Origin: a virus
Length of the DNA stretch: 32,447 nucleotides
IMG/VR virus record: IMGVR_UViG_3300049491_000170
Location: 1 to 32,447 of that record
Reading direction: 5' to 3' (one strand)
The translations under genes were made by a program, and so were the position numbers. Shown piece after piece: positions 4,296 to 23,640 of this stretch (its first letter is position 1; every line of letters starts with the position of its first letter). Under the pieces are notes generated by a model. That model searched no databases and was not told where the DNA came from. It worked only from the letters and a program-made list of their open reading frames with translations.

Positions 4296-7200
4296 ATGCC
4301 ACAATTTGAAGAAAAAACTGTCGATCCGTTCTTTGCCCCAACCGCACCTACTGATGGAGGTATTCTTGACCGCCCCGTTTCTTCTTGGACTGATATTGGA
4401 CGAGCTGCGCTGGAACAGGAAAACGACATTTACAACTTTGGTCAGGCTATCAACCGGGATAAGTTTCCCCCTGTGGATGGTTACGACGAGGTTGATTACC
4501 TCAAAAAGAAGGGGCTTCTCGAGAACGGTGAGCGGTTCCTGGGATCGTCAAGCCCCGCCGAGACAGAGTGGAAGATCGAACAAGTCCGGCGTGAAGAGGA
4601 GAACAAGAGAATACTCGACGCAGGCGGTGTCGCCGCTTTCGGCGCACAGGTCCTTTCAGGCGCAGTAAGTCCAACAACCTTCATTCCGTTTTGGAAAGGC
4701 GCCACAGGCTCAAAAGCGATCTTGATGGGCGCGGCCTCGTTATTCGCTGGCGCGGCCGCACAGGAGATGGTTCTGTACGACAACCAGCTTACTCGCAGTC
4801 CAGGCGAAGTGGCGATGAGTCTCGGGTCTTCAGTTGTCCTTGGCGGAGTACTCGGTGCTATAGCACACACCCTCGCGAAGAAAGATTGGGATAAGCTAGT
4901 TTCGAATACGGATACTTTACCCGATAAAGAATACATATCCGCCCCTATGCGAATGTCTGGCGACCTCAACGCGATGGAAGTGACCACGTTGCAGGACGTT
5001 GGCAAACTTGAGGGAATGGGAGCCGCTGCTCTCTCCCGCCTCCCGATCGCACAGAACCCGATCATTCGAGGTTTGCAACAGTGGAACGCTCCTGCTTTTG
5101 TGAAGGAACAAGGCGGGTCTCCGGTTATTCGCCGGTTCACTGCAGGCTTCTCACAGGACGATCTTGCCCTGCAGAAAAACCAAGACTGGCTTGCGGCTTC
5201 ACCGGGCGGCAACGTGGAGAACCTGAAAAAGACCTATCAAGTCGTGGCTTACAAAGCGCATCAAGCCGTCGAGGGCGCTTATCTGGACTACGCCAAAACC
5301 AGTTCTGGCGTCATGCAAGCTACCCGTGCTAGGATTTCCGCCGCTCGTCAGGGAAAGATGTCCTACGATGAATTTAAGCAAGCAATTATTCGAGATATTT
5401 GGACGGGCTTCGAGAAAAACGCAGCGCCGGAAGTACGCAAAGCGGCTCAAGCTGTTGAAACGGAGGTCTTCAATAAGCTGTATAAAGAGGGCGTTGAAGT
5501 GGGTATTTACAAGGGCGACGAAAAGGTTGTAGGCGATGAGGGCTATGCTCGTCGTGTTTACAACCACACTGCGATTGTGCAGAGGCGCCAAGATTTTGCC
5601 AAAATACTGGCCGATCACTACAAGATGCAGCTTGAGACTGAGTTCGTGAAAGCGAATGAGAAGTTCGTGGCGAGGCAGGAAGCGGACAAGGCCAAGCTGG
5701 AAGCTTGGACTGTGCCGGAGGAAGAAGTCACCAAGCGGAAGATGGAACTTCAGCAGCGGCTTAAGGATGTCCAGGAGCAAACCGATCCGAACGTGCTTGC
5801 AGCTGATGCGGCCGATCGCACGATCACGCGGAACCTTCGTGCGCTGGCTAAGGAGAAAGACGGGCTGTTGGCAACAAAGTCCAACAATCCGAATGAGTTT
5901 TTGCTTCGGGCTGGTCGTATAGCCGAGATCGACGAGCAGATGAAACTTCATGCGAAGGATCAAGCGGACCTTGAGGAAGTGCTTGGTGAAGACCTTGGCA
6001 AGTATCGCAGTGTGGTGCGGGAGATTAACAAGAACCTTGACAACTTGAAGAAAGCCTTCGTCGGGGTTGAGGGCAGGCGCCAAGCTAAGCTCCGCAAGAT
6101 CGAAGGGCTCGAAGAGCAGCAGATCGACACGATCCTCAGCTACAGCGCTAAAATCGAGAAGCTGCGGAAGTTTGCTAAGTCGGCTTCGCCTGAGGCGCTT
6201 GGCAAAGCGATCAAAAAACTTCAGGACGATCTGGCCGACGCCGCAGGCAAGTACGATAAACTTGAGGATACTATTGTCAAAGCCGATGTTGAGAACCTAC
6301 CGGAGGTTCCATTCGCTGCGATTGACAAGCAGGGCGAAGTCGGCGAACGCATGATGAAGATCAATGCGAAGCTGGATGATCTGGAGAACTTCGACAGGGC
6401 TTCATTCGACAAAGCCCTCGACGAGATGAAGCGGACGCTTGGAGAAACTGCAGCAGAACTTAATGCCAAACGGACACTCCGCGCGGAGAAGCTGTGGGCA
6501 CAAGCGGAAAAACTTTCGCCAGAGGCTCGGCTTGCTCGGCAGAAGGCGCTTGAGACTAAGATGAAAGACGACACTGCGGATTTCCGTGATCGTTGGAGAT
6601 TGCGCGGCGCGGTGTCGGATGCTCCGATTACGATGAACGGAGCGGTCGCTGACCTCTCGGAGAAAGCCCGCGAGGACGCCGAAGCGGTCATCAACAAAAT
6701 CCTGGGGTCTGAGCGGCGCTTGGCCTACCATGACATTATCCAGGCCGAGCGCGGACCAGAACTCAAACGTGTGTTGAGCATCTCATCAGATAGCATAGCA
6801 GACTTCCTCGAGACCGACATTGAGAAAGTCATTGCGACTTACACTCGGACGCTTGGGGCGGACATCTCGCTTGCGAGGGTTTTCGGTGAAATGGTTCCTG
6901 GACAGGAGTTCAAAGCCCTCACCGACGAGAAAGATAAGATGCTTCAGGCGGTAAAAGAGGCCACGAAGAAAGACGGGACTCCGAAGTACACGCCAAAACA
7001 ACTGATTAAGGAAAACAAGAAGATCGAGGCTTTCTACGAAGGCGCTCGCAAAGACCTGTATGTGATGCTTGAGCGAGTCCGAGGTATTCGGAACGTACCG
7101 ACCGATCCAGAGGCTTGGTCCTATCGTGGGGCAAAAATGCTGATGGACCTCAACTACCTCCGGTTCATGGGCGGCGTGTTGATTTCCTCGATCCCGGACA

Positions 7201-8345
7201 TTAGCCGAGTTGTGATGAAGCACGGCCTGGCTAACACAATGAAGAACGCAGTGGTTCCGATGATTACGGACTTCAAGACGATCCGCATGTCACAGAGGGA
7301 AGCGCAGCTTGCGGGCACAGCCCTCGATGTTTTGCTTCACACTCGTATGTACTCGATGTCAGACGTTTTCGACGATGCTCATAGGGGGACTTCACTTGAA
7401 CGAGGTGTTCACTTCCTGGCTTCCCGCCTCGGTGTGTGGGGAGGGTTCGATCATTGGAACTCGGCCATGAAGCAAATCACTGCGGGAGTGGTGAACGCTC
7501 GTGCCCTCGACAACATCGCTATCGTGATGAAGGCGCAAAAGGGGAACGAGAAGAAAGCAATCGAGTTCCTCGCCAAGAACAACATCGACCAGGAAATTGC
7601 CGAGACCATCTGGAAACAGGTTACGAACGGCAAGGGCGGCGGCAAGGTAAATGGCATTTGGCTGCCGAACACGGAGCACTGGGACATGTCAGAACCTGGT
7701 GTGGCTCGAGCACAGCGAGCTTATCGTGCGATGCTTGCAGCTGAAGTCGATGCCACCATCGTTACGCCGGGATTGGGTAAGCCAAACTGGACTGACGAAA
7801 ATACATTCTACCGGATGCTGGCGCAGTTCAAATCCTACGGGATGGTCTCGACGCAGAAAGTTATGATGGCGAACCTGCAACAGCATGATGCAGCTGCCGC
7901 TAATGGCATTATGCTATCGCTTGGCCTCGGCGCTATGTCTTACTACCTTTATGCAATAGCAGTCGGCGGTAAGACTGAAGAAGAAATGCGGAATGCAGAA
8001 CTCGACAAATGGGCCGACGAAGCCATCAGTCGCTCAGGCGTAACGGCGGTCTTTGACCAGGTTCAGCGTGTGGCAGAGAAACTCCCGATCCTGCGCGAGT
8101 ACGCCAACTTCAGTGGTCGTGCTTCGACTCGTAGGGGTCAAGGTGATTTAATGGAGGCTGCACTTGGCCCATCTTTTGACTTGATGGAAAAGGCGTTCCG
8201 TGTTATAGAAGACGTTGACGCGCCAACGAAATCAACCATACACGCACTGCGCTTAATGTTTCCGTTACAGAACCTGTTTTACTTCCGACGCATACTTGAT
8301 CAAATCGAAGGAACCGTACCAGTTCCAGATCGGAGACAAAAATGA
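4296..8345 (+). CDS. Large internal virion / DNA ejection protein (gp16-like)
   Basis: I start it at ATG 4296, not the open frame's upstream ATG at 4230, because GGAGA lies five bases before 4296 and one base separates it from the previous stop. The product is about 1349 residues. Near the N terminus there are two hydrophobic Gly/Ala stretches (about residues 110-175), consistent with membrane insertion. Residues about 440-800 are long charged coiled coil rich in Lys, Glu and Leu. The C-terminal third is mixed with another hydrophobic patch (ANGIMLSLGLGAMSYYLYAIAV). Size, position after the gp15-like gene and before the tail fibre, and membrane-active segments fit the largest T7-like core protein. 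I see no transglycosylase motif here. Confidence 0.75.
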   Translation: MPQFEEKTVDPFFAPTAPTDGGILDRPVSSWTDIGRAALEQENDIYNFGQAINRDKFPPVDGYDEVDYLKKKGLLENGERFLGSSSPAETEWKIEQVRREEENKRILDAGGVAAFGAQVLSGAVSPTTFIPFWKGATGSKAILMGAASLFAGAAAQEMVLYDNQLTRSPGEVAMSLGSSVVLGGVLGAIAHTLAKKDWDKLVSNTDTLPDKEYISAPMRMSGDLNAMEVTTLQDVGKLEGMGAAALSRLPIAQNPIIRGLQQWNAPAFVKEQGGSPVIRRFTAGFSQDDLALQKNQDWLAASPGGNVENLKKTYQVVAYKAHQAVEGAYLDYAKTSSGVMQATRARISAARQGKMSYDEFKQAIIRDIWTGFEKNAAPEVRKAAQAVETEVFNKLYKEGVEVGIYKGDEKVVGDEGYARRVYNHTAIVQRRQDFAKILADHYKMQLETEFVKANEKFVARQEADKAKLEAWTVPEEEVTKRKMELQQRLKDVQEQTDPNVLAADAADRTITRNLRALAKEKDGLLATKSNNPNEFLLRAGRIAEIDEQMKLHAKDQADLEEVLGEDLGKYRSVVREINKNLDNLKKAFVGVEGRRQAKLRKIEGLEEQQIDTILSYSAKIEKLRKFAKSASPEALGKAIKKLQDDLADAAGKYDKLEDTIVKADVENLPEVPFAAIDKQGEVGERMMKINAKLDDLENFDRASFDKALDEMKRTLGETAAELNAKRTLRAEKLWAQAEKLSPEARLARQKALETKMKDDTADFRDRWRLRGAVSDAPITMNGAVADLSEKAREDAEAVINKILGSERRLAYHDIIQAERGPELKRVLSISSDSIADFLETDIEKVIATYTRTLGADISLARVFGEMVPGQEFKALTDEKDKMLQAVKEATKKDGTPKYTPKQLIKENKKIEAFYEGARKDLYVMLERVRGIRNVPTDPEAWSYRGAKMLMDLNYLRFMGGVLISSIPDISRVVMKHGLANTMKNAVVPMITDFKTIRMSQREAQLAGTALDVLLHTRMYSMSDVFDDAHRGTSLERGVHFLASRLGVWGGFDHWNSAMKQITAGVVNARALDNIAIVMKAQKGNEKKAIEFLAKNNIDQEIAETIWKQVTNGKGGGKVNGIWLPNTEHWDMSEPGVARAQRAYRAMLAAEVDATIVTPGLGKPNWTDENTFYRMLAQFKSYGMVSTQKVMMANLQQHDAAAANGIMLSLGLGAMSYYLYAIAVGGKTEEEMRNAELDKWADEAISRSGVTAVFDQVQRVAEKLPILREYANFSGRASTRRGQGDLMEAALGPSFDLMEKAFRVIEDVDAPTKSTIHALRLMFPLQNLFYFRRILDQIEGTVPVPDRRQK

Positions 8346-10174
8346 GCCTTTCCTCTACCACGGCCTCAATCACCGCAACTGGGAATGGGGTGACGACTGC
8401 CTTCCCGGTTCCGTTTCTTTTCTATGAGTCTACTGATCTAGTTGTCACCAGGATTTTGATTTCAACTGGCGCTGAGACGGTGCTTTCGCCTTCGGCTTAT
8501 ACGGTTACAGGTATGGAGAACCCGGCTGGCGGCACGGTCACTTACCTCATGGGAGGTTCGCCGCTTTCTACCTTGTATAAACTCCGCATTGATCGAGTTG
8601 TGCCGATGACTCAGGACCTAGTCCTGCTTCGTGAAGGAGTGTTCGATCCAAGTGCGATTGAAGAACAGCTGGATAAGATCGTCATGATGATCCAGCGGAA
8701 TAACTACCTTGCTTCGATTGGCGCTTCGATTATTTTGAGTGGCGCTGGCGCTCCTGCCGAAAGCCTCGGCAAGTACACTGATTACTACATCAACACCTCG
8801 AACGGCGATTTGTACGGGCCGAAGACTACTGCCGGTTGGGGCGCAGTTGTAACTAACGTTAAGGGTCCAACTGGAGCCACGGGCGCAACGGGCGCAACTG
8901 GTGCGCAGGGTATTCAGGGCATTCAGGGTATCCAGGGTATTCAAGGTATTCAAGGCAACGCTGGAACCAACGGTGCCGCAGGCGCAGTGTGGTACAATGG
9001 TGCTGGCGCCCCCGCAGGCGGCACAGGCATCAATGGTGATTATTACCTCGACAACACTAACGATGATGTCTATGCGAAGGCGGCTGGTTCCTGGTCAGTG
9101 ATCACGAATATTCGTGGCGCCTCGGGCTCAGGTACTGGTGATGTTGTTGGGCCAGCCTCGTCAACAGTTAATCGGATACCTACTTTCTCTAGTGGTACAG
9201 GCAAAGCCATTCAAGACAGTGGTGTATTGATTACTGATCTGGTGGCGAAGTCCGGCGGCACGATGACGGGGCCGTTAATTACTCCGGCTTCTGTTGTTGG
9301 GGCAGCTGGTCTCAACGTTCCGCACGGCGTAGCTCCCACCACTCCAAACAACGGAGACATATGGACAACCTCTGGCGCAGTGTTTACTCGCCTCGGCGGC
9401 ACCACGCAGACCTTGATGACGCTGGCGGGCGGAACCCTCACAGGCTTGCTCACCACACTTGCTGCGACAACAGGCGGTGCGGGGCTTAACATCCCTCACG
9501 GCGCTGCGCCGACAACACCTAACAATGGTGATATTTGGACCACGACCTCAGGTACGTTCGTTCGCATCAACGGTACAACTCGAACCCTGATGACAACTGC
9601 AGGCGGTACGTTCTCTGGCAAGGTGATTTTCTTCACTTCCACAACGTCATCTTCTGCAATCAACATTCCTCACGGTGTGGCTCCAACCGCGCCTACTGAT
9701 GGTGATGTGTGGTCAACAACGGCGGCCTTCTTCAATCGTATTAACGGCGTCATTTACACAGTTGCGTACCTGGAAAGCCCGACTTTTACAGGAACTCCAG
9801 CTGCGCCTACGCCAACAGCGAGGGACAACTCGACAAAGATCGCCACCACAGCCTATGTCGATAACGCGGTCGGAAACATTGTTCAAAACGCTCAGACTGG
9901 TACAACGTATAGCACAGTCGCAGGCGATAAGGGCAAACTTGTCACACTGTCTAACGCGGCGGCTATCACAGTCACAATCCCCTCGGCTACTCATGCGGCA
10001 GGCGATCGGATTGACTTTATCCAAAAGGGCGCTGGACAGGTTACCTTCGTCGGTTCAGGTGTGACGATTAACTCATCCGGCGGCAAGCTGAAAACGGCCG
10101 CTCAGTATGCTGGTTGCACGATTTGGTTTGAAAGTGCAACTGTAGCTTATATGGTTGGAGACATGACCACATGA
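8342..10174 (+). CDS. Tail fibre protein with collagen-like stalk and repeated modules
   Basis: The 610-residue protein begins in an ATGA overlap with the ejection protein. Residues 1-120 resemble the tail-attachment domain of T7 gp17-type fibres (TGNGVTTAFPVPF near the start, then the segment FDPSAIEEQLDKIVMMIQRN). Residues 175-214 are Gly-X-Y triplets including five GIQ repeats, a collagen-like trimeric stalk. A NGDYYLD segment follows, then three copies of a roughly 58-residue module with PHGVAPTTPNNGDIW, and a C-terminal beta-rich region. TARDNSTKIATTAYVD is a motif common in tail-fibre and tail-collar proteins. Likely function is host recognition. The receptor-binding end is not recognisable. 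Confidence 0.88.
   Translation: MSLSSTTASITATGNGVTTAFPVPFLFYESTDLVVTRILISTGAETVLSPSAYTVTGMENPAGGTVTYLMGGSPLSTLYKLRIDRVVPMTQDLVLLREGVFDPSAIEEQLDKIVMMIQRNNYLASIGASIILSGAGAPAESLGKYTDYYINTSNGDLYGPKTTAGWGAVVTNVKGPTGATGATGATGAQGIQGIQGIQGIQGIQGNAGTNGAAGAVWYNGAGAPAGGTGINGDYYLDNTNDDVYAKAAGSWSVITNIRGASGSGTGDVVGPASSTVNRIPTFSSGTGKAIQDSGVLITDLVAKSGGTMTGPLITPASVVGAAGLNVPHGVAPTTPNNGDIWTTSGAVFTRLGGTTQTLMTLAGGTLTGLLTTLAATTGGAGLNIPHGAAPTTPNNGDIWTTTSGTFVRINGTTRTLMTTAGGTFSGKVIFFTSTTSSSAINIPHGVAPTAPTDGDVWSTTAAFFNRINGVIYTVAYLESPTFTGTPAAPTPTARDNSTKIATTAYVDNAVGNIVQNAQTGTTYSTVAGDKGKLVTLSNAAAITVTIPSATHAAGDRIDFIQKGAGQVTFVGSGVTINSSGGKLKTAAQYAGCTIWFESATVAYMVGDMTT
8864..8983 (+). repeat. Collagen-like Gly-X-Y repeat coding segment
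   Basis: Thirteen in-frame Gly-X-Y triplets run as GPT, three GAT, GAQ, five GIQ, GNA, GTN, GAA. The GIQ part is a near-perfect 9-base tandem repeat (GGTATTCAG variants) that could expand or contract by slippage and so change fibre length. Confidence 0.9.
9250..9780 (+). repeat. Three tandem fibre modules of about 174 bp
   Basis: Units begin near 9253, 9427 and 9602 with GG-T-x-[ST]-G, then carry N-[IV]-P-H-G-x-A-P-T, GD[IV]W and a R[IL][NG]G-T turn. The first two are closest to each other; the third is more diverged, particularly in its last 15 residues. They look like duplicated beta modules of the fibre shaft. Confidence 0.8.
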
Positions 10175-12623: not shown

Positions 12624-13867
12624 GCGTCCTTACGAACTCGCGGAACGTACCCGTCGAAAGACTTCGCAAACATTCCAGCTTTGACCATGACCTGAAGTAT
12701 CCTCTCAACAGAATGGGAGGGTACTTTAGCTGCGAGGTACTCGATGATGACGCCCTCATCGAGGGGTTTCTTGGTTTTGTAGTACAGCTTGCAAGCCCAA
12801 TAGTATGCGTCCTCGATGGCCTTTGCATCGCCGCCGACTGAGATTGATTTGAAGATGTCTGGCATGTACATCTCGGCTTCGAGCAGCCAGGACAAAGCGC
12901 GATTGTAATGCTCGAGTGTGATAACCATCTTATTGTCGGCACTGATGCAGGCGATCATGCAAAGTTTCAGCAAGTGTGCGGATCGGCGGGAGTTATAACT
13001 GGCCAGCTTTGGGTGTTCAGGCCTTGGCGGACCTTTGGCCTGATGCCATGCGTCGAGGGCCTCAGCTGCATCGGGCATGAAGATGAAGCGACCTGTGACG
13101 TTGCCGATCGAACGAAGGTCGAATACGAGGTCACGAAAAAGTTCCTCGTTCATGTCGATGGCGTCGAAGAGCGAACGAACAATGTTCTCGCCACTGTGGA
13201 TCAGGATCGTGCGGGAGAGGAAGCCGTGGCCCCACGCTTGCTCAGGCATGGTATCGAACAAGTAAGCCACTGTCGTTGCGCCGAGGAGGTTCAACTGCGG
13301 TGAGTCGAGCATATTGTTGATGTCCTTCGACCGTTTCTTCTCGTGGTAGCGATTGCAGTCATAAAGGTCCGTAAGGGTCGCCATGAACTCCACATCATAC
13401 GCAGGGAGAAATACCCCCATTTCATTCTGCACAACTGCGAGGGAGTTAAATGTCATCACAGGTGGAGTTGATTGTGGCATGACGACTCGGCGCTCGGCAA
13501 GCATCAAGGAGTCAATCAGGGATGCACGACTCACGCTCGATGGGGCAAGGTGATGATCGGACAACTCGCCAAGGAACTTCTGCACAAGGGCGGTCAAGAC
13601 CGACTTACCCACACCCGGAGGTGAAATTAGCATGACGTAGAGGTTTGGATAGAGTGGCCCTATGTTTGTGCGTATCCAAGCCTTGCGCTCCATCGCCATA
13701 GCGAGGATGCAGATACCCGCCCACTTCTTAAACAAGAATGGTGCAGGGGAACCTTTGACATATTCATCAAACTGGTCAAGCCAATCAGGAAGTTTCCGAG
13801 GCTTTACATTAGTAGTGCTTTCAAAGACCTTGCCGAGGGCGCTCTCCGGTAGTCGCTTCCCTTCCAT
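12620..13867 (-). CDS. DUF3987-like P-loop ATPase (replicative helicase/primase-associated)
   Basis: The 415-residue protein has Walker A SPPGVGKS at 82-89 and an N-terminal helical region with a Trp-rich start. Residues about 365-415 look like a small winged helix (DEGVIIEYLAAKVPSHSVE). This is the layout of DUF3987 / phage helicase-primase-like ATPases, encoded here directly downstream of the polymerase. It probably drives unwinding or helicase loading in phage replication. The gene starts inside the polymerase 3' end (64-base overlap) with only a weak GGGG leader. No zinc-binding or TOPRIM primase domain is visible, so priming must come from elsewhere. Confidence 0.75.
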   Translation of the reverse strand: MEGKRLPESALGKVFESTTNVKPRKLPDWLDQFDEYVKGSPAPFLFKKWAGICILAMAMERKAWIRTNIGPLYPNLYVMLISPPGVGKSVLTALVQKFLGELSDHHLAPSSVSRASLIDSLMLAERRVVMPQSTPPVMTFNSLAVVQNEMGVFLPAYDVEFMATLTDLYDCNRYHEKKRSKDINNMLDSPQLNLLGATTVAYLFDTMPEQAWGHGFLSRTILIHSGENIVRSLFDAIDMNEELFRDLVFDLRSIGNVTGRFIFMPDAAEALDAWHQAKGPPRPEHPKLASYNSRRSAHLLKLCMIACISADNKMVITLEHYNRALSWLLEAEMYMPDIFKSISVGGDAKAIEDAYYWACKLYYKTKKPLDEGVIIEYLAAKVPSHSVERILQVMVKAGMFAKSFDGYVPRVRKDA

Positions 13868-15339
13868 TTCGTCAACCCCAATTCGTTATCTACTGAACCA
13901 TCTTTTTTCTCGTTGCGGTCGCCCCAATTCCAACCGACCTTGGCTTCGACAGGGACGAAAAACTCTCGGCCTCCAGCAAGGGTAATGGGGACTCGGAGGG
14001 AAGAGGCTCCGAGGGGTACAAGTTTATCCAAGTCGTCCTCAGGGACTTGGGCTAGGATTGAGTCATGGACCTGGATTAGAAGCTGGAACTTCTGTGTGCG
14101 GAATAAGTTCAGAAGTCCTTTGTTCATTTCGTCCGCAGTCGGAGACTGGCCCATGAAAGCGATGGCCTTGCGGACTGTCGCTTCGTCATTGGCTCGACCC
14201 CAAAATGTGCGCCTGCGACCATGCAACGTGGTGAGCGTACTCGTTTCCCGGAGCATCCGCTTCACATACTCGTGACCGGACTTGATACAAGGGAAAGCTT
14301 TGAAGTATTTGTCTTGGAAAACTCCTACGATGTTCCGGTCGATCTTAGTTTGGAGAGCCATCTGCGGTGCCTGACCGTAGTAATTCGTGCCGTGACCAAG
14401 TTTCTTTGCGGTCTGACGGTACGAGTCCTGACGGTAGAAGATGCGATCGGCTATGGCTCGGTTGGCTTTGATGTCATCGGTCCACTCGAACTCTGCCCAC
14501 GCGAGTTTGCAGACAGTTGTGTGGAGGTCAGCGGACTCACACGCATCAAGATAAGCTCCAGCGTATTCAGGTCCGTGGGACTCGTAAAACCATTGCCAGC
14601 AATTTGCTCCCACATTACGGGAGTCGGCTTGCTCAAGGTCATAATTGACGAAGGCCATTCCCTCGTCTGGAATAAAGACGGAACGCAGGGAGCGGTCAAC
14701 ATTTTGGAGATTTGTTCCAGTTCCCATGTCTGAAAACTTCGAGGAGAACCGTCCGGTGTCTGTGCCGGCGAGGTTAATAGACGTTCTAATTCGTCCATCA
14801 GGATCAATCTCCGTTTCAAGGAACTGGCGTTTCTTTTCAAGATCACGCAGGAGCAAAAGCCGCAAGCAGAATGGTTCGGCTACGAGGTAAGTCGATAGCT
14901 TCTCCAACGCCTCACGGTTTACCGTTGGCATGAACAGGCCGTGAGCGTTCCGCTTCCGAACTGGTTTCAATTGGAACACATCGTAGAACAGGTGCTTGAC
15001 CTGGGCTGGTGAGGACCAATTGATCTTCAGGCCCAGGGCTTCACCGATGATGCGGTTCAGCTGATCGGTGATGAACTTGATCTCGAAGCGGAACCCGTCG
15101 AGGACGTGCTTGCGTTGGGCCTTATCAACCCGCAGCCCCCGCATGTTCATTTCAAGCACAGGCCCCTGCAAAGCCCGGCTCTGATTATAGATCGCCTCGG
15201 TTGTGGGATCGAGATACCCCAACAACTTGTTAAGGATTTCCAGCGTCACGCAGGCATCGAAGCCGTTGTAAACCCAGTCGTTCTCGTCCTGCGTGAGGCA
15301 AGTGTCGTGACGCAGCTCGTCTGAATAAATGACACGCAT
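13804..15339 (-). CDS. Family A DNA polymerase, ORF with exo motif III and the polymerase domain
   Basis: The 511-residue protein carries the full palm-fingers region: TDTGRFSS at 193-200, NLQN at 210-213, motif A VNYDLEQAD at 231-239, motif B R308, K312, Y320-Y-G, and motif C VHDS at 424-427. Residues 21-35 (DWVYNGFDACVTLEI) are exo motif III (Y24, D28) of a 3'-5' proofreading domain; exo motifs I and II are on the ORF at 15696-16700, beyond a DUF1937 gene. The protein must therefore join with that ORF's product for proofreading, or work without it. Motif A has Asp where Pol I has Glu, motif C has Ser for Glu, and motif B has His316 where Pol I has Phe762. The start ATG is in a TAATG overlap. 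Confidence 0.92.
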   Translation of the reverse strand: MRVIYSDELRHDTCLTQDENDWVYNGFDACVTLEILNKLLGYLDPTTEAIYNQSRALQGPVLEMNMRGLRVDKAQRKHVLDGFRFEIKFITDQLNRIIGEALGLKINWSSPAQVKHLFYDVFQLKPVRKRNAHGLFMPTVNREALEKLSTYLVAEPFCLRLLLLRDLEKKRQFLETEIDPDGRIRTSINLAGTDTGRFSSKFSDMGTGTNLQNVDRSLRSVFIPDEGMAFVNYDLEQADSRNVGANCWQWFYESHGPEYAGAYLDACESADLHTTVCKLAWAEFEWTDDIKANRAIADRIFYRQDSYRQTAKKLGHGTNYYGQAPQMALQTKIDRNIVGVFQDKYFKAFPCIKSGHEYVKRMLRETSTLTTLHGRRRTFWGRANDEATVRKAIAFMGQSPTADEMNKGLLNLFRTQKFQLLIQVHDSILAQVPEDDLDKLVPLGASSLRVPITLAGGREFFVPVEAKVGWNWGDRNEKKDGSVDNELGLTKWKGSDYRRAPSARSLKALLM

Positions 15340-15692
15340 TAGTTTTGCTGTCCCTTAGAGGGTGGGAAGTACTCGATGTAATAGACTGGAATGTCGAGGG
15401 CCTTAGCCATAGCGATTTCAGCTGTGACTCCGGCAGATTGATCCCAACCCTCAAGCATGAGTACACTCATCATCGAGGCGTGACGCAGCATGGCGGTGTT
15501 GAACTCCTTCCAAGCCTGAGCGGAAGTGCCAAGCGCAGGCTCGACTTCGTTCAGTGGGTGCCCGTAGGCGATAGGGGAGAACACAGGCTGGCCGATCTTG
15601 AGACAAGCCGCAGCACACAAGCGGGCGGCATTGTAACGAGCCTCACGAACGGAAGCCTCTGGATGGGAGTATGGCGATGCAAGGTAAATCAT
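15339..15692 (-). CDS. DUF1937 / nucleoside deoxyribosyltransferase-like protein inside the polymerase locus
   Basis: The 117-residue protein has the DUF1937 signature: MIYLASPYSHP at the start, FSPIAYGHPL at about 38-47, and LEGWDQSAGVTAEIAMA at about 79-95, the last matching the active-site Glu region of nucleoside 2-deoxyribosyltransferases. It may act on nucleosides or nucleotides, so a role in nucleotide-pool or modified-base metabolism is possible. It starts after a strong GGAGG that is part of the last codons of the upstream UDG-exonuclease ORF, and ends in TAATG with the polymerase ORF. It separates two halves of one exonuclease domain. Confidence 0.8.
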   Translation of the reverse strand: MIYLASPYSHPEASVREARYNAARLCAAACLKIGQPVFSPIAYGHPLNEVEPALGTSAQAWKEFNTAMLRHASMMSVLMLEGWDQSAGVTAEIAMAKALDIPVYYIEYFPPSKGQQN

Positions 15693-15695
15693 GAG

Positions 15696-16700
15696 TTAAT
15701 CCTCCGCTTTAATTGTGTCAACCTTCTTGCGGCCCATAAACTTCCAAGCCACTTCGTCGGTATAAACCGATCCCAGGAAACGTAGGGACTTCTCCATTTC
15801 AGGCTGAAGCGCGTGATGGAGAAGCATAGTGTCTTGGCCCTCGGAGGCCGCAAGAACTGGGATGCCGTAATTCCGCCAAAGGTGGTGCATGTCGTACATG
15901 CCGTTCTGGAAGACTGCGGTTTTCTTCAGGGCGCACATGCGTTTAACCCAACGCCAGGCACCGACTTCGAGCTGGACGCTCGGCCAATAGGGAGTGTTGT
16001 TTGCGTTAACGAAAGGGACTACCAAGGCTACCTCTGGCGTGGGTGCAAAGCCTACGCAGGTGATGATCCGACCCATTGTTTCGATGTCGATCGACAGGTA
16101 TGGGTTTGGCTCGATGTACTCTTGCTCGAATTTGGCGAGGTCCTCAAAGGTCGGCTCGATAAAGATCGAACGGCGGACCTTGCGGATTTCAGGGAAGTCC
16201 ATGTTGCGCCGCAGCTTGTCGAGGTCCGCGATGAAGACAGGGTGCTGAGACCAGTCTTTGTGGATTGCAGCTGGTGCGAAGGTCGGGATGATCTTTGTTT
16301 GGGAGAGGTGGCCGAACCCGTGCATCGGAGTGCCGCGATAGTTACGGATGCCGGATATGCCTGTCAAGGCCCACATGGCTGTGGCGCCGAGGGCCAGGAC
16401 TACCGTGGGCTTGTGATGTTTGATGGCCTCGTGGAGGGCGGTAAGATGTACACCGTACTCGGCGCGGAGGTGCTTACCCTTGACGATGGCGGGAAAACCA
16501 CGAACGCCTTCAGGCGCTTTGCCGCAAAAGGTCTTGATTTCCTTGACGCCGAACGGGAACACTGAGCGAAAGTCAGCATCCCGAAGGTCTATGCCTACGT
16601 GTGAAAGAGACTGGCGGAGGAGGGTCTCTTGGGGTCCGGCAAGCGGACGGCCTGAGAGAAAGCCTTCCTCGTTTGGAGCTTCGTTCACAATCATAAGCAT
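15696..16700 (-). CDS. UDG-superfamily domain fused to the N-terminal half of a DnaQ-like 3'-5' exonuclease (polymerase part 1)
   Basis: The 334-residue protein has two parts. Residues 1-160 resemble family 4/5 uracil-DNA glycosylases (NEAPNEEGFLSGRPLAG near the start, PTVVLALGATAMWALTG at about 98-114, FAPAAI where family 4 has its HPS-type motif; the His is missing). Residues 195-310 are the start of a proofreading domain: exo I D205-I-E207 and exo II N266-x3-D270. Exo III is absent here and lies at the start of the ORF ending at 13804. A UDG domain before exonuclease and polymerase is known from some phage polymerases such as that of SPO1. The last codons (KAED) double as the GGAGG site of the next gene. 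Start ATG 16700 has GAGG upstream; 16694 is an alternative. Confidence 0.82.
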   Translation of the reverse strand: MLMIVNEAPNEEGFLSGRPLAGPQETLLRQSLSHVGIDLRDADFRSVFPFGVKEIKTFCGKAPEGVRGFPAIVKGKHLRAEYGVHLTALHEAIKHHKPTVVLALGATAMWALTGISGIRNYRGTPMHGFGHLSQTKIIPTFAPAAIHKDWSQHPVFIADLDKLRRNMDFPEIRKVRRSIFIEPTFEDLAKFEQEYIEPNPYLSIDIETMGRIITCVGFAPTPEVALVVPFVNANNTPYWPSVQLEVGAWRWVKRMCALKKTAVFQNGMYDMHHLWRNYGIPVLAASEGQDTMLLHHALQPEMEKSLRFLGSVYTDEVAWKFMGRKKVDTIKAED

Positions 16701-17028: not shown

Positions 17029-17303
17029 TTGTCTACTCCATTTGCAATCTTTGCATAGCCTGCGATGTCGTCCCAATGATCCTGGAACGAGGCGTCGCCA
17101 GCAATAATGCGCCCGATTTTGTGGAGGATCATGTCCATAGACTCGAGTTGAGTATCGTTTAACATAGGTTGGTTTCTATCAATGCGTTTTCGCAGTTCTT
17201 CGCGGTAAACGGCTTTAAGTTTTATAGTAATCCTGGCATGATCGTTAAACGAGCCGTGGGTTTTGTGGCGCTCGGCCAACAGTTCAGATGTTGTCTGGTT
17301 CAT
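17025..17303 (-). CDS. DUF6378-like small protein
   Basis: I start at ATG 17303 (92 residues). The longer frame up to 17441 is a shadow of the methyltransferase gene. The sequence TSELLAERHKTHGSFNDHA and the later MDMILHKIGRIIAGD ... HWDDIAGYA pattern is that of a common small phage protein family (DUF6378), whose conserved acidic and His residues recall MazG/NTP-pyrophosphatase-like helical folds, although its activity is not established. It overlaps the methyltransferase 3' end by 20 bases; the leader has AAAGGAAG. Confidence 0.7.
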   Translation of the reverse strand: MNQTTSELLAERHKTHGSFNDHARITIKLKAVYREELRKRIDRNQPMLNDTQLESMDMILHKIGRIIAGDASFQDHWDDIAGYAKIANGVDK

Positions 17304-18537
17304 CGAGGTATGCTTCCTTTGCTCTGTTGTAGAACTCGATGTCTCGTTCGAGGCCAAGGACGGCGTGTGCACCTCGTGTCTCGCCTGCGCGGATCGCGTT
17401 TCCGCTTCCACAAGTTGGGTCAAGGAGAGAGGTGTGTTCATCTACGAACATCTCCATAAATTTGGTGAGCATCCCGATAGGCTTTTCGCTCATGTGAATT
17501 TCCTTCGTAGTGGGATGGGAGACTACGTTGGACACAGCGCGGATGATCTTGCGATCGCCTCGCGAAGCCATGAGGCAGGTTTCATAGATACGACGTGGCC
17601 CGCGAGTGGGATCGGGGAGGATGCCCATGTTGTCGGACTTGTGCCAGATCAAGGGGAACGGGTTAACCTTCCACCCCATGTCGGTGAGGTTCTGAACGGT
17701 GTCCTCGTAGAAGTCCATCGAGAACCAAAACATCAAATGAGCTGATGGAGCGATGACGTTCTCCATCGCAGCGGCTAGGCGGTCTAGCAATCCCCAATAG
17801 ACTTCCTCGCTATCCTCGTACCCGCCAAAGGCTGCGGCCTTGCCTTGATCGTGCTTGTCAGCGTTCACCCCGTAGGGGAAATCGCAGTGGATAAAATTGA
17901 ACTTAGGCCCTGAGTATGTCGGCTGCCATTCGTGGAAGTCAGCGTTAAGCAATGGCACAACTTTCTCCGGGATCGCATCAACCCCGAACATCTCGGCCAT
18001 CGACTCGTGAACCACAGTATCCCGCTTGCGTTCGGCATCACGCTGAGTGATACCACGGGCAACGGAGAACTTGGGTGCTTCGAGAACGCGAGTGTTACCC
18101 TTCTGGATTTCGGCAGCTACTGCGCGCTTTGCGGATACGTCCGACTGGCTGACGCCGAGGGCTTCCGCAGTGGCGACGTTGTTCCACTCGGGGTCCAAGG
18201 ACGCCCGAAGCTGGTGGTACTGCTCGACTGCTAGGCACTGGTCCTGCCATGACAGGTCAACCCGCTTGATGTTTTCTTCCAGCTCGATCAAGTGGATTTG
18301 TGCGGGGTCGAGTTCGTCGATGTACTTGGTGTCGATGTGAGTCCAGCCGAGGGACTTGATCGCTGTGTACCGACGTTCGCCTGCGACGAGGACGTTATCG
18401 CGCTTGATGATGATTGGCTGGAGTTGACCTACCTCGCGGATCGAGTTAGCAAGTTCCTCAATCTGCGTGAGTTCCTTGCGTTGTCGCGCAGGACGATCGA
18501 CGATGATGGAGTCAATAGGAAGGGATTGATATGACAT
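17284..18537 (-). CDS. ParB-like domain fused to an adenine/cytosine-N4 DNA methyltransferase
   Basis: I start at ATG 18537 (417 residues) with GGAGC six bases upstream; the frame reaches 18579 but without a better site. Residues 3-90 are a ParB/sulfiredoxin-like nuclease-fold domain with VAGERRYTAIKSLGW at 51-65, and residues 120-140 look like a helix-turn-helix (TAEALGVSQSDVSAKR). Residues 185-415 are an N4/N6 DNA methylase: DFPYG at 219-223 is the DPPY-type catalytic motif, and DPTCGSGNAI at 383-392 is the S-adenosylmethionine motif. Fusions of this kind occur in many phages and probably protect phage DNA or mark it. No cognate restriction gene is adjacent. Confidence 0.88.
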   Translation of the reverse strand: MSYQSLPIDSIIVDRPARQRKELTQIEELANSIREVGQLQPIIIKRDNVLVAGERRYTAIKSLGWTHIDTKYIDELDPAQIHLIELEENIKRVDLSWQDQCLAVEQYHQLRASLDPEWNNVATAEALGVSQSDVSAKRAVAAEIQKGNTRVLEAPKFSVARGITQRDAERKRDTVVHESMAEMFGVDAIPEKVVPLLNADFHEWQPTYSGPKFNFIHCDFPYGVNADKHDQGKAAAFGGYEDSEEVYWGLLDRLAAAMENVIAPSAHLMFWFSMDFYEDTVQNLTDMGWKVNPFPLIWHKSDNMGILPDPTRGPRRIYETCLMASRGDRKIIRAVSNVVSHPTTKEIHMSEKPIGMLTKFMEMFVDEHTSLLDPTCGSGNAIRAGETRGAHAVLGLERDIEFYNRAKEAYLDEPDNI

Positions 18538-18591
18538 GGTTGCTCCGAGAGAGAAGTAAAGGGGCAGCACAATCGCCACCCCTCGTTGTTG

Positions 18592-19059: not shown

Positions 19060-19847
19060 GGTTGTTTTCCTTTAAGCTGTTCAAACAGTGTTGCTAAGCC
19101 AGTGCCCAGGGGTAATTCGGCCTCAACCTTAAAGGGCGCTGATGATTTAAGGTCGAGGAGCGAAGTCGGAACAGTGGTGATGCTCCGCTTCGCCTGCTTG
19201 CCCACGCCTACGGTGTGAGCGAGTATCATGTTGTTGAAGTAGGTCGGGACAAACGGGCCGAGGGCCTTACCGATTGTGTTGGCATACCCACGGACTGAGC
19301 CGTCTGAGGCGGTGACGATCTGAACGTGAGCGATAACGATGACGTTGGCTCGGAACGGTTCGGAGGTGAGCAAGGCGAGGAGTTGATCGACAGCCTGTTG
19401 TGCGGCATGATACCACTGGCGGGGTTCCTTCGCCATCGGGTTCATGCCCTTGGCCCACTCGAAAGCGGCTTTGCCGAGGCCCGTGAGGGAGTCCATCACG
19501 AAGACAGTGTTCGGTCCCCACTCGGCGGGGATCGTACCATCTGGCCACTTGTTAAGCAGGCGCATGGCTTCCGCGAAAGCACGGGCAGGGCCGTCGAGGG
19601 TTGGACCAACTGGACCGCCCTTGTATTTATCACGGCGGGTCTCGAAATCAACGGCATCGAGTTTGTCCGGGCACTCGTTCTTAATATAAGCCGCGAGAAT
19701 GTCAAGGCCGTTATCGAAATCGAGGACGCGGAGTTGGTATCCGGCCTTGACGAGGGAAACGAGGGAACCTGTTTTACCCGTACCGGAGTCGCCAAGGTAT
19801 AGGACCTTGACAAAATCGGAGGATTGGTGGGCGGAAAGTTTAGGCAT
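19056..19847 (-). CDS. RecA-like ATPase of the AAA_24 / Sak4 type (single-strand annealing recombinase candidate)
   Basis: The 263-residue protein has Walker A GDSGTGKT at 19-26 and Walker B VFVMDS at 115-120, followed by a Q/H-type motif (VIVIAHVQIVT) typical of RecA-core phage proteins. Its size and its neighbours (DUF669-like protein, Cas4/RecB-like nuclease) fit Sak4-type recombinases that catalyse strand annealing with an SSB partner. The start ATG lies in a TAATG overlap with an HNH gene, and GGAGTCAAGTA precedes it. Another P-loop role such as helicase loading is possible. Confidence 0.8.
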   Translation of the reverse strand: MPKLSAHQSSDFVKVLYLGDSGTGKTGSLVSLVKAGYQLRVLDFDNGLDILAAYIKNECPDKLDAVDFETRRDKYKGGPVGPTLDGPARAFAEAMRLLNKWPDGTIPAEWGPNTVFVMDSLTGLGKAAFEWAKGMNPMAKEPRQWYHAAQQAVDQLLALLTSEPFRANVIVIAHVQIVTASDGSVRGYANTIGKALGPFVPTYFNNMILAHTVGVGKQAKRSITTVPTSLLDLKSSAPFKVEAELPLGTGLATLFEQLKGKQP

Positions 19848-20344
19848 TACTTGACTCCTAATTGTGCGAACCTGCCATGATATTTTATGCAGGCTTCTTC
19901 GTAGGCTTGAGCAGCAGCTTCTTTGGTTTCAAAAGAACCTAGATTAATTCTTTTGCCGCTTACTCTTATTTTGGCTAACCAAGGTTTGTTTTTGCGATCG
20001 CGCCATGTTACTCCCTTGTATCCATGCGAATTAACTTGAACACTATTATAACCGTTCTCTGATGGACTTGCTTCACGCAAATTGTTTATGGAATTATCTT
20101 TCCTGTCCCTGTTTATGTGGTCTATATAATTACTAGGCCAGTAACCGTAATACAAAGTCCATGCAACTCTATTAACACTTATTTCATGCTCACCTAACCG
20201 AACTGAGTCATTAGTAACTACGCCAATAAACTCTTTCCGACGAGAAGTAAGTCTTGTTAATTGCCCTGTATCGGGATCGTAACTATACAGTTTACGTAAT
20301 TCACTAACAGGGATTGGATCAACTGCTTTTGCCATAACACTCAC
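19847..20344 (-). CDS. HNH homing endonuclease with AP2 DNA-binding domain
   Basis: The 165-residue protein begins with GTG at 20344 in a GTGA overlap; ATG 20335 is an alternative. Residues about 75-95 have the HNH_3 core (NYIDHINRDRKDNSINNLR). Residues 105-165 are an AP2/ERF-like domain (GYKGVTWRDRKNKPWLAKI and LGSFETKEAAAQAYEEA). Such proteins are free-standing phage homing endonucleases. The DNA is clearly more AT-rich than both neighbours, a sign of transfer, yet it is spliced into the operon with minimal overlaps at both ends, so downstream expression is kept. Confidence 0.88.
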   Translation of the reverse strand: MSVMAKAVDPIPVSELRKLYSYDPDTGQLTRLTSRRKEFIGVVTNDSVRLGEHEISVNRVAWTLYYGYWPSNYIDHINRDRKDNSINNLREASPSENGYNSVQVNSHGYKGVTWRDRKNKPWLAKIRVSGKRINLGSFETKEAAAQAYEEACIKYHGRFAQLGVK

Positions 20345-22950: not shown

Positions 22951-23640
22951 CTATTTATTTGCTTTGTCCTCTATTTCATTTATGCCGTCGATGATCAGGG
23001 CACGGGCGAGTTCGGCAACGGTCACGCCTATGCGAGTGGCTTCCTTGTGGATGGCGAAGAGCTGTTCGTCAGACAGCCCCTCTACTGTGAACCGCCGAGG
23101 GCCATAGAGGCGGCGCTTGGCTGTGTTCGTGACGTGAGGGACAGAGCAATTAAGTTGCTTTGCTATGTCCCGGTAAGGCACCCCCTGAAGGATCAAAGCG
23201 ATGATGTCAGGGGTGCGAGAGTTGGCGTAGTACTGCGGTCGAGACACTGGGTTGGTCTCGATCCTCAGTCGGGCGGCGGTTTCATTAATCTCAGCTATCT
23301 GTTCGTGTGTCAACTTTCCTCCGCGCCGTTTGTTGAGCATGTCCTGGGTGTTTTCAATGTTTGTTCCGGCTCGAAGATGAGCGGGGTTACAACACGCTCG
23401 ATTATCGCAAGTATGCAGGACGTATAACTTATCTGGAATGGAACCATACTCAATTTCGTAAGCTAGTCTATGCGTTGCATATGGAATACCCTTTATAAGG
23501 GAAATAGTTCCATAGCCATCTGTTACTCTAGCTTTCATCCAAGGCCAACAGTCATCAGGTCCTCGTTTATCTACTCCTTCCCAATAACGTTGAATAAGCC
23601 ACTCTCTACGGGTTAAGTTGTCTGGCTTAATCTTTGGCAT
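22951..23640 (-). CDS. HNH endonuclease with C-terminal helix-turn-helix
   Basis: The 229-residue protein has an HNH core with zinc-type cysteines (LHTCDNRACCNPAHL at 75-89, H76, C78, C83, C84, H88). Residues about 110-175 hold a DNA-binding region (LTHEQIAEIN, then YRDIAKQLNCSVPHVTNTAK, a resolvase-like helix-turn-helix). The end looks like a ribbon-helix-helix (GVTVAELARALIID). It is a free-standing phage homing endonuclease. The N-terminal half is AT-rich. It has its own promoter and is set apart from the operons on each side. Confidence 0.85.
   Translation of the reverse strand: MPKIKPDNLTRREWLIQRYWEGVDKRGPDDCWPWMKARVTDGYGTISLIKGIPYATHRLAYEIEYGSIPDKLYVLHTCDNRACCNPAHLRAGTNIENTQDMLNKRRGGKLTHEQIAEINETAARLRIETNPVSRPQYYANSRTPDIIALILQGVPYRDIAKQLNCSVPHVTNTAKRRLYGPRRFTVEGLSDEQLFAIHKEATRIGVTVAELARALIIDGINEIEDKANK

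Follow-up and report, generated by a model that had tools for sequence, protein, structure and literature searches.

A phage family A DNA polymerase divided between exonuclease motifs II and III, with a variable gene slot at the junction

Results and discussion

The virus record IMGVR_UViG_3300049491_000170 of IMG/VR, 32,447 bases long and analysed here as a whole (the window), carries on its minus strand a gene with a uracil-DNA glycosylase (UDG)-like domain and part of a 3'-5' exonuclease (exo), followed by a gene for a family A DNA polymerase (Pol) that begins with the remainder of the exonuclease. The cut lies between the exonuclease motifs exo II and exo III, and the same cut was observed on 101 distinct contigs. 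We consider it highly probable that the two genes encode a two-subunit family A polymerase, derived from a UDG-exo-Pol gene that was cut once and whose junction has since turned into a gene slot. As a mechanism, an ancestral single UDG-exo-Pol gene would have been cut at a surface loop immediately ahead of the exo III helix, and this would have happened in the common ancestor of a large podovirus-like phage clade. Of the two products, the UDG-exo chain would provide exo I and exo II, the polymerase chain would provide exo III and the polymerase core, and the chains would assemble as one Klenow-like enzyme with a proofreading site shared between them. The end of the exo gene would bear a ribosome-binding site, and the junction would have become a gene slot, in which a gene of the DUF1937 or DUF7768 family would be translationally coupled to the polymerase.

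Phage polymerases in pieces have so far been treated as oddities and put down to introns or homing endonucleases. In the present case a single cut, which runs through a catalytic site, persists throughout a deep clade whose members are mostly uncultured, with one isolate available for work. Nature thus offers a system in which proofreading can be separated from synthesis and the stabilisation of a broken enzyme can be studied. The clade also illustrates how a broken gene becomes a site of gene insertion with its own ribosome-binding site.

Domains and motifs of the two genes

The first-pass annotation had read three minus-strand open reading frames (ORFs) at this locus, namely UDG-exo with exo I and exo II, DUF1937, and exo III with the polymerase; all three were confirmed with the same boundaries, and domain matches support them. 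The UDG-exo gene (15696-16700, minus strand; 334 amino acids (aa)) encodes a UDG-superfamily domain at residues 2-153 (16242-16697), assigned from PF03167 and from motif counts in relatives, and the first two thirds of the exonuclease domain, with exo I as D205-I-E207 (16080-16088) and exo II as N266-x3-D270 (15891-15905), both invariant in the alignment of relatives. The protein matched PF03167 (E 1.3e-7) and positions 483-789 of PHROG 17 (E 2.8e-26), and its end point is common to the 101 contigs. The polymerase gene (13804-15339, minus strand; 511 aa) has exo III as Y24-x3-D28 (15256-15270) near the start of the chain, followed by the thumb, palm and fingers of a family A polymerase. It matched PF00476 (E 7.7e-32) and positions 809-1242 of the 1445 in PHROG 17 (E 2.2e-48), and polymerase motifs A, B and C are present, with D234, R308, K312, H425 and D426 invariant.

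The two proteins cover consecutive stretches of this single fused-polymerase family. The exonuclease encoded upstream is of one family with the polymerase ORF, and the UDG, exo, Pol domain order of the PHROG 17 subfamily is retained across both genes. The acidic residues of exo I, II and III and the tyrosine are all present, distributed over two chains. Exo and Pol are not on a single polypeptide, being encoded by two ORFs in different frames with a gene in between; in the relatives examined, the polymerase ORF is likewise incomplete by itself. Neither of the outcomes that the first-pass annotation had named as refuting was observed.

Relatives sharing the cut

Single-sequence scans of IMG/VR found a single relative for the polymerase and failed to find any for the exo half. 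Small alignments were then used as queries, giving 308 contigs for the polymerase half, of which the best 80 were kept, and 51 contigs for the exo half; a genome scan gave only two contigs of metagenome-assembled genomes. With duplicates removed, 101 distinct contigs, including the window and a single isolate, Caulobacter phage Kuura, carry both halves in order with an identical cut site just before exo III. Their exo chains end ~15 residues past a WK motif, and their polymerase chains begin 18-29 residues before the exo III tyrosine. Since the same cut is present on 101 distinct contigs, it is due neither to chance nor to assembly error; the split noticed in the window is real, and the impression that the arrangement is settled was borne out. 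Contigs showing one half only run off, or nearly off, their end on the other side, and a joined version of the two parts was not found on any contig of the split clade. On a single 5.8-kb contig (L063 703-1722, and its reverse L097), the exo half is opposite in strand to the polymerase half, as a result of inversion or misassembly.

Unsplit UDG-exo-Pol relatives, which the first-pass annotation had suggested looking for, do exist and align across the junction. At the cut site they read, for example, WKDEGKEWDEKTGEDQLWVYN, and split exo chains stop at the position of its ...ED. A scan seeded with unsplit sequences found mainly unsplit genes, together with a second recurrent split after an NLQN motif. 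In a tree of 137 rows, a branch with SH-aLRT 100 had all rows split between exo II and exo III, apart from the outlier L134, on the same side. With SPO1-type polymerases as the root, the split rows formed one group nested among unsplit rows, in trees made by a quick method in which long-branch placement is uncertain. This nesting suggests that the unsplit state is probably ancestral and that the cut probably arose once, which is the simplest account. L134, split outside the clade and beside unsplit sisters, either was cut independently in the same loop or has a frameshift.

Splits have occurred at several sites in this polymerase family, and the slot is only one of them. The second recurrent split lies directly after the conserved NLQN, with an intervening gene present or absent, in L005 (5659-6191), L178, L180, L181, L184 and L186. 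Podovirus ctLwi270 (L218 1727-4364; MW202554) has its UDG-exo-Pol in two coding sequences, split further downstream after an exo III-like YN..D motif; this is a further independent split.

Conservation of both halves

A simple-pattern search recovered exo III in every one of the 101 polymerase chains; among the exo chains, it recovered exo II in 100/101 and exo I in 92/101. The one contig missing both exo I and exo II is truncated by the contig end. Pairwise distances of the exo and pol genes were strongly correlated (r=0.83), with a maximum of 0.23 in 2000 permutations, none of which (0/2000) was as high. Ratios of nonsynonymous to synonymous substitution (dN/dS) were well below 1 for both genes in informative close pairs, and both genes are under purifying selection. 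The exo gene was less conserved than the pol gene in some pairs.

The lower conservation of exo, the separation of the genes and the inverted exo gene on one contig would fit a UDG-exo chain that has parted from the polymerase and works alone, in uracil surveillance or as a nuclease, leaving the polymerase proofreading-deficient. We regard this as unlikely, because all 101 polymerase chains conserve exo III, which would serve no purpose if exo I and exo II were missing. The co-divergence of the two genes, the presence of both halves wherever the contig extends far enough, and the high-confidence joint fold described below also argue against a stand-alone exonuclease.

Predicted joint structure

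In L036 there is no slot, and the exo stop codon TAA is directly followed, in frame, by the polymerase ATG; by reading the stop codon as a residue we obtained a natural joined chain for AlphaFold2. The model had a mean predicted local distance difference test score (pLDDT) of 93.4 and a predicted template modelling score (pTM) of 0.91, with pLDDT below 50 only at residues 311-319, which form the junction, and at the C-terminus. Its best PDB match (TMt 0.78) was 8oo6, an E. coli Pol I large fragment, with 659 alignment columns spanning both parts; next came a Klenow fragment complex and phage G20c Pol I. A joint sequence profile also aligned to the Klenow fragment across both halves. When the window polymerase chain was folded alone, its first 40 residues had block means of 60-80 and the exo III helix was broken, low scores to which a shallower alignment may contribute.

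The Klenow-like joint model and the consecutive PHROG 17 matches suggest that the two chains would form a polymerase of two subunits that share one proofreading site. The earlier proposal that the two proteins may reassemble is very probably correct. It is also conceivable, although we hold it to be rather unlikely, that proofreading is detachable, with Pol working without UDG-exo and gaining 3'-5' editing when the latter docks, while a nucleoside 2-deoxyribosyltransferase (NDT)-like enzyme of the same operon or complex would keep non-standard deoxynucleotides out of phage DNA.

The gene slot between the halves

The slot varies in length from 0 to ~1.7 kb among split loci, and on three contigs it is empty, the stop and start codons abutting or overlapping. 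DUF1937 occupies 49 of the 101 slots and DUF7768 occupies 17; the two were never found in the same slot (hypergeometric P 3e-6, relatedness ignored). KTSC-domain proteins, MazG, small unknown ORFs and HNH genes of several families are further occupants. The close pairs L018/L025 and L020/L021 differ by clean slot insertions. Where an NDT-like gene is present, it is the last gene before pol in 54/61 cases, with 4 or 1 bases as the commonest overlap, and only two DUF1937 copies of split loci were found outside the slot within the fetched flanks. DUF1937 was also found before or after unsplit or otherwise split polymerases (L133, L205, L186 and L004), so that its association with the polymerase is independent of the cut.

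These observations bear on how the window had been read at first. DUF1937 as the cause of the cut was rejected, since slots are variable or empty and DUF1937 also adjoins unsplit polymerases. A nucleotide-metabolism-like gene as separator had been called unusual; DUF1937 does stand between the halves, but the identity of the separator varies from locus to locus, and DUF1937 is the commonest one rather than an oddity of the window.

An intron or intein that interrupts the polymerase gene, with a single chain restored by self-splicing, would also separate the halves. SPO1-type phages are known to have introns in their polymerase genes. Introns have further been suggested for the split PolA of OM43 phages (PMC10580990). 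At the present junction none was detected by Rfam: the window region, searched with E up to 1, gave one snoRNA match only, far below its gathering score, and eight relatives gave zero matches. The three contigs without an intervening gene and the conserved ends and start codons that each half has of its own also speak against a spliced product. The intron was rejected on the missing Rfam matches and the zero-gap members, and we consider splicing of either kind very improbable.

As to how the cut was made, an endonuclease gene at the junction is absent in the window and present in some relatives, where AT-rich HNH genes of several families (GC 0.37-0.44 vs 0.49-0.61 around them) occupy the same slot. 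We give an even chance to the explanation that invasion by a homing endonuclease made the original cut and that the slot genes came later, which concerns the origin only and is compatible with a two-subunit polymerase. The codons at the cut immediately precede a highly conserved motif, and other family members are split at another conserved motif, NLQN, both of which speak for such an invasion; most slots, however, including that of the window, are without an HNH remnant, and later invasion of a pre-existing slot would fit equally well. The window DUF1937 gene has a GC of 0.552, like its flanks (0.559 and 0.528).

Ribosome-binding site at the end of the exo gene

In the window, a Shine-Dalgarno (SD)-like GGAGG (15701-15705, minus strand) lies within the last UDG-exo codons, 8 nt 5' of the ATG of the DUF1937 gene, and the DUF1937 stop and polymerase start overlap as TAATG. 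The final 18 nt of the exo gene contained an SD-like word at 85/101 loci, compared with 13.7% of gene-body windows. This frequency agrees with the first-pass annotation, in which the last UDG-exo codons double as GGAGG, and it indicates that the end of the exo gene doubles as the putative start signal of the slot gene. Split exo chains end in a short conserved tail, T-x-K-[KR]-[ED]-[DE]. This tail was first considered as a docking peptide; arginine codons at the last four exo positions are biased to AGG (18/34 vs 159/2321 in the gene body), which together with the SD-like words shows that the conservation is at least partly that of a ribosome-binding site.

Possible role of DUF1937

The slot gene of the window (15339-15692, minus strand; 117 aa) encodes an NDT-like protein that matched PF09152 (E 2.5e-17) and also DUF7768 and the NDT family. 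DUF1937 and DUF7768 are related domain families of the same superfamily. An alignment of 41 DUF1937 sequences revealed conserved YxASPY, SPI and SxG motifs, with Y3, A5, S86, G88 and E92 invariant. By comparison with the NDT family, E92 is the candidate nucleophile. The nearest solved structure is 1t1j (E 1e-19), an uncharacterised protein. Enzymes of the NDT superfamily such as DNPH1 hydrolyse non-standard deoxynucleoside monophosphates (PMC10483697, PMC10603095). The papers searched contained nothing on DUF1937 in phages. DUF1937 and DUF7768 proteins are most likely nucleotide-pool enzymes acting on deoxynucleotides rather than polymerase subunits, and such a role would be plausible for DUF1937 beside a UDG-bearing polymerase. 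Their recurrent pairing with the polymerase makes the function of these domains testable.

DUF1937 had also been proposed as a possible third partner of the polymerase, and its presence in 49/101 slots, usually with a stop-start overlap with pol, and next to unsplit polymerases would be in line with a structural or regulatory subunit. Many slots nevertheless lack it and hold DUF7768, KTSC, HNH or nothing instead, a natural DUF1937-polymerase fusion was not seen, and its conserved residues resemble the active site of the NDT superfamily, pointing to an enzyme. A third subunit is therefore improbable, and the proposal was not supported.

Several observations weigh against a two-subunit polymerase coupled to a nucleotide-pool enzyme. 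The joint model is of one chain with unsplit homologues in its alignment, and gives compatibility rather than affinity. The inverted exo gene of L063/L097, unless an assembly error, would weaken the need for coupled expression. DUF1937 tracks the polymerase tree moderately (r=0.52), its distribution is patchy (13 changes on 83 rows), and membership of the family does not establish a substrate. Finally, the UDG domain of the window has lost the usual HP[SA] motif found in most relatives, which here reads APA; its glycosylase activity is doubtful, and the domain, though kept, may be inactive.

Comparison with known polymerases

The fused UDG-exo-Pol polymerases of PHROG 17, including those of Microcystis phage Mel-JY34, Desulfofustis phage LS06 and SPO1-type phages, have the same domains in the same order with full-length homology. 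They carry exo and Pol on one chain, whereas the window clade has two chains, cut before exo III; some SPO1-type genes are interrupted further downstream than this cut. Caulobacter phage Kuura (OQ067476), a podovirus, has the same cut in the same place with 34% identity to the window in both halves, although its slot holds two other small genes, unlike the DUF1937 gene of the window. Four polymerase or exo queries from the clade were run against 50,697 phage records, and only Kuura was seen with the cut. The Kuura paper reports a DNA polymerase, and the portions of its text covered here do not mention a split (PMC9959647). The exo half of Kuura is annotated as hypothetical, as can easily happen, and such phages then look proofreading-deficient, which they probably are not.

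In OM43 phages MEP401 and MEP402, and in most of their group, family A PolA is encoded by two ORFs with a small ORF between (PMC10580990). That cut lies inside the polymerase domain, in contrast to the cut in the exonuclease site of the window clade; the NLQN split described above may lie at a site of the kind cut in OM43 phages. The replicative polymerase of Aeromonas phages 25 and 44RR, gp43A/gp43B, is also in two chains, but it is of family B and the gene is unrelated. In phage 25 these chains co-purify with polymerase activity, and a seg-like homing endonuclease is associated (PMC2988022).

Other genes of the window

The plus strand of the window encodes podovirus-type internal virion proteins and the minus strand the replication operon. 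In order of transcription, the latter comprises a ParB-methyltransferase fusion, two small genes, UDG-exo (16700-15696), DUF1937 (15692-15339), the polymerase (15339-13804) and a DUF3987/phage primase-like gene (13867-12620), identified by domain and PHROG matches. The primase-like gene begins within the polymerase gene and shares its last 64 nt (13804-13867); L007 has a similar overlap (6476-6545), and the start, MEGKR, is the same in both. Upstream of the UDG-exo gene, a ParB N-terminal domain is fused to a DNA methyltransferase (17284-18579); ParB-methyltransferase-like genes also lie near the polymerase in L007 and several unsplit relatives. Two HNH endonuclease genes (19847-20344 and 22951-23640) are located elsewhere in the replication region. 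A tail fibre protein (8342-10174) had matches in several tail-fibre families, one of them a collagen-like minor tail family.

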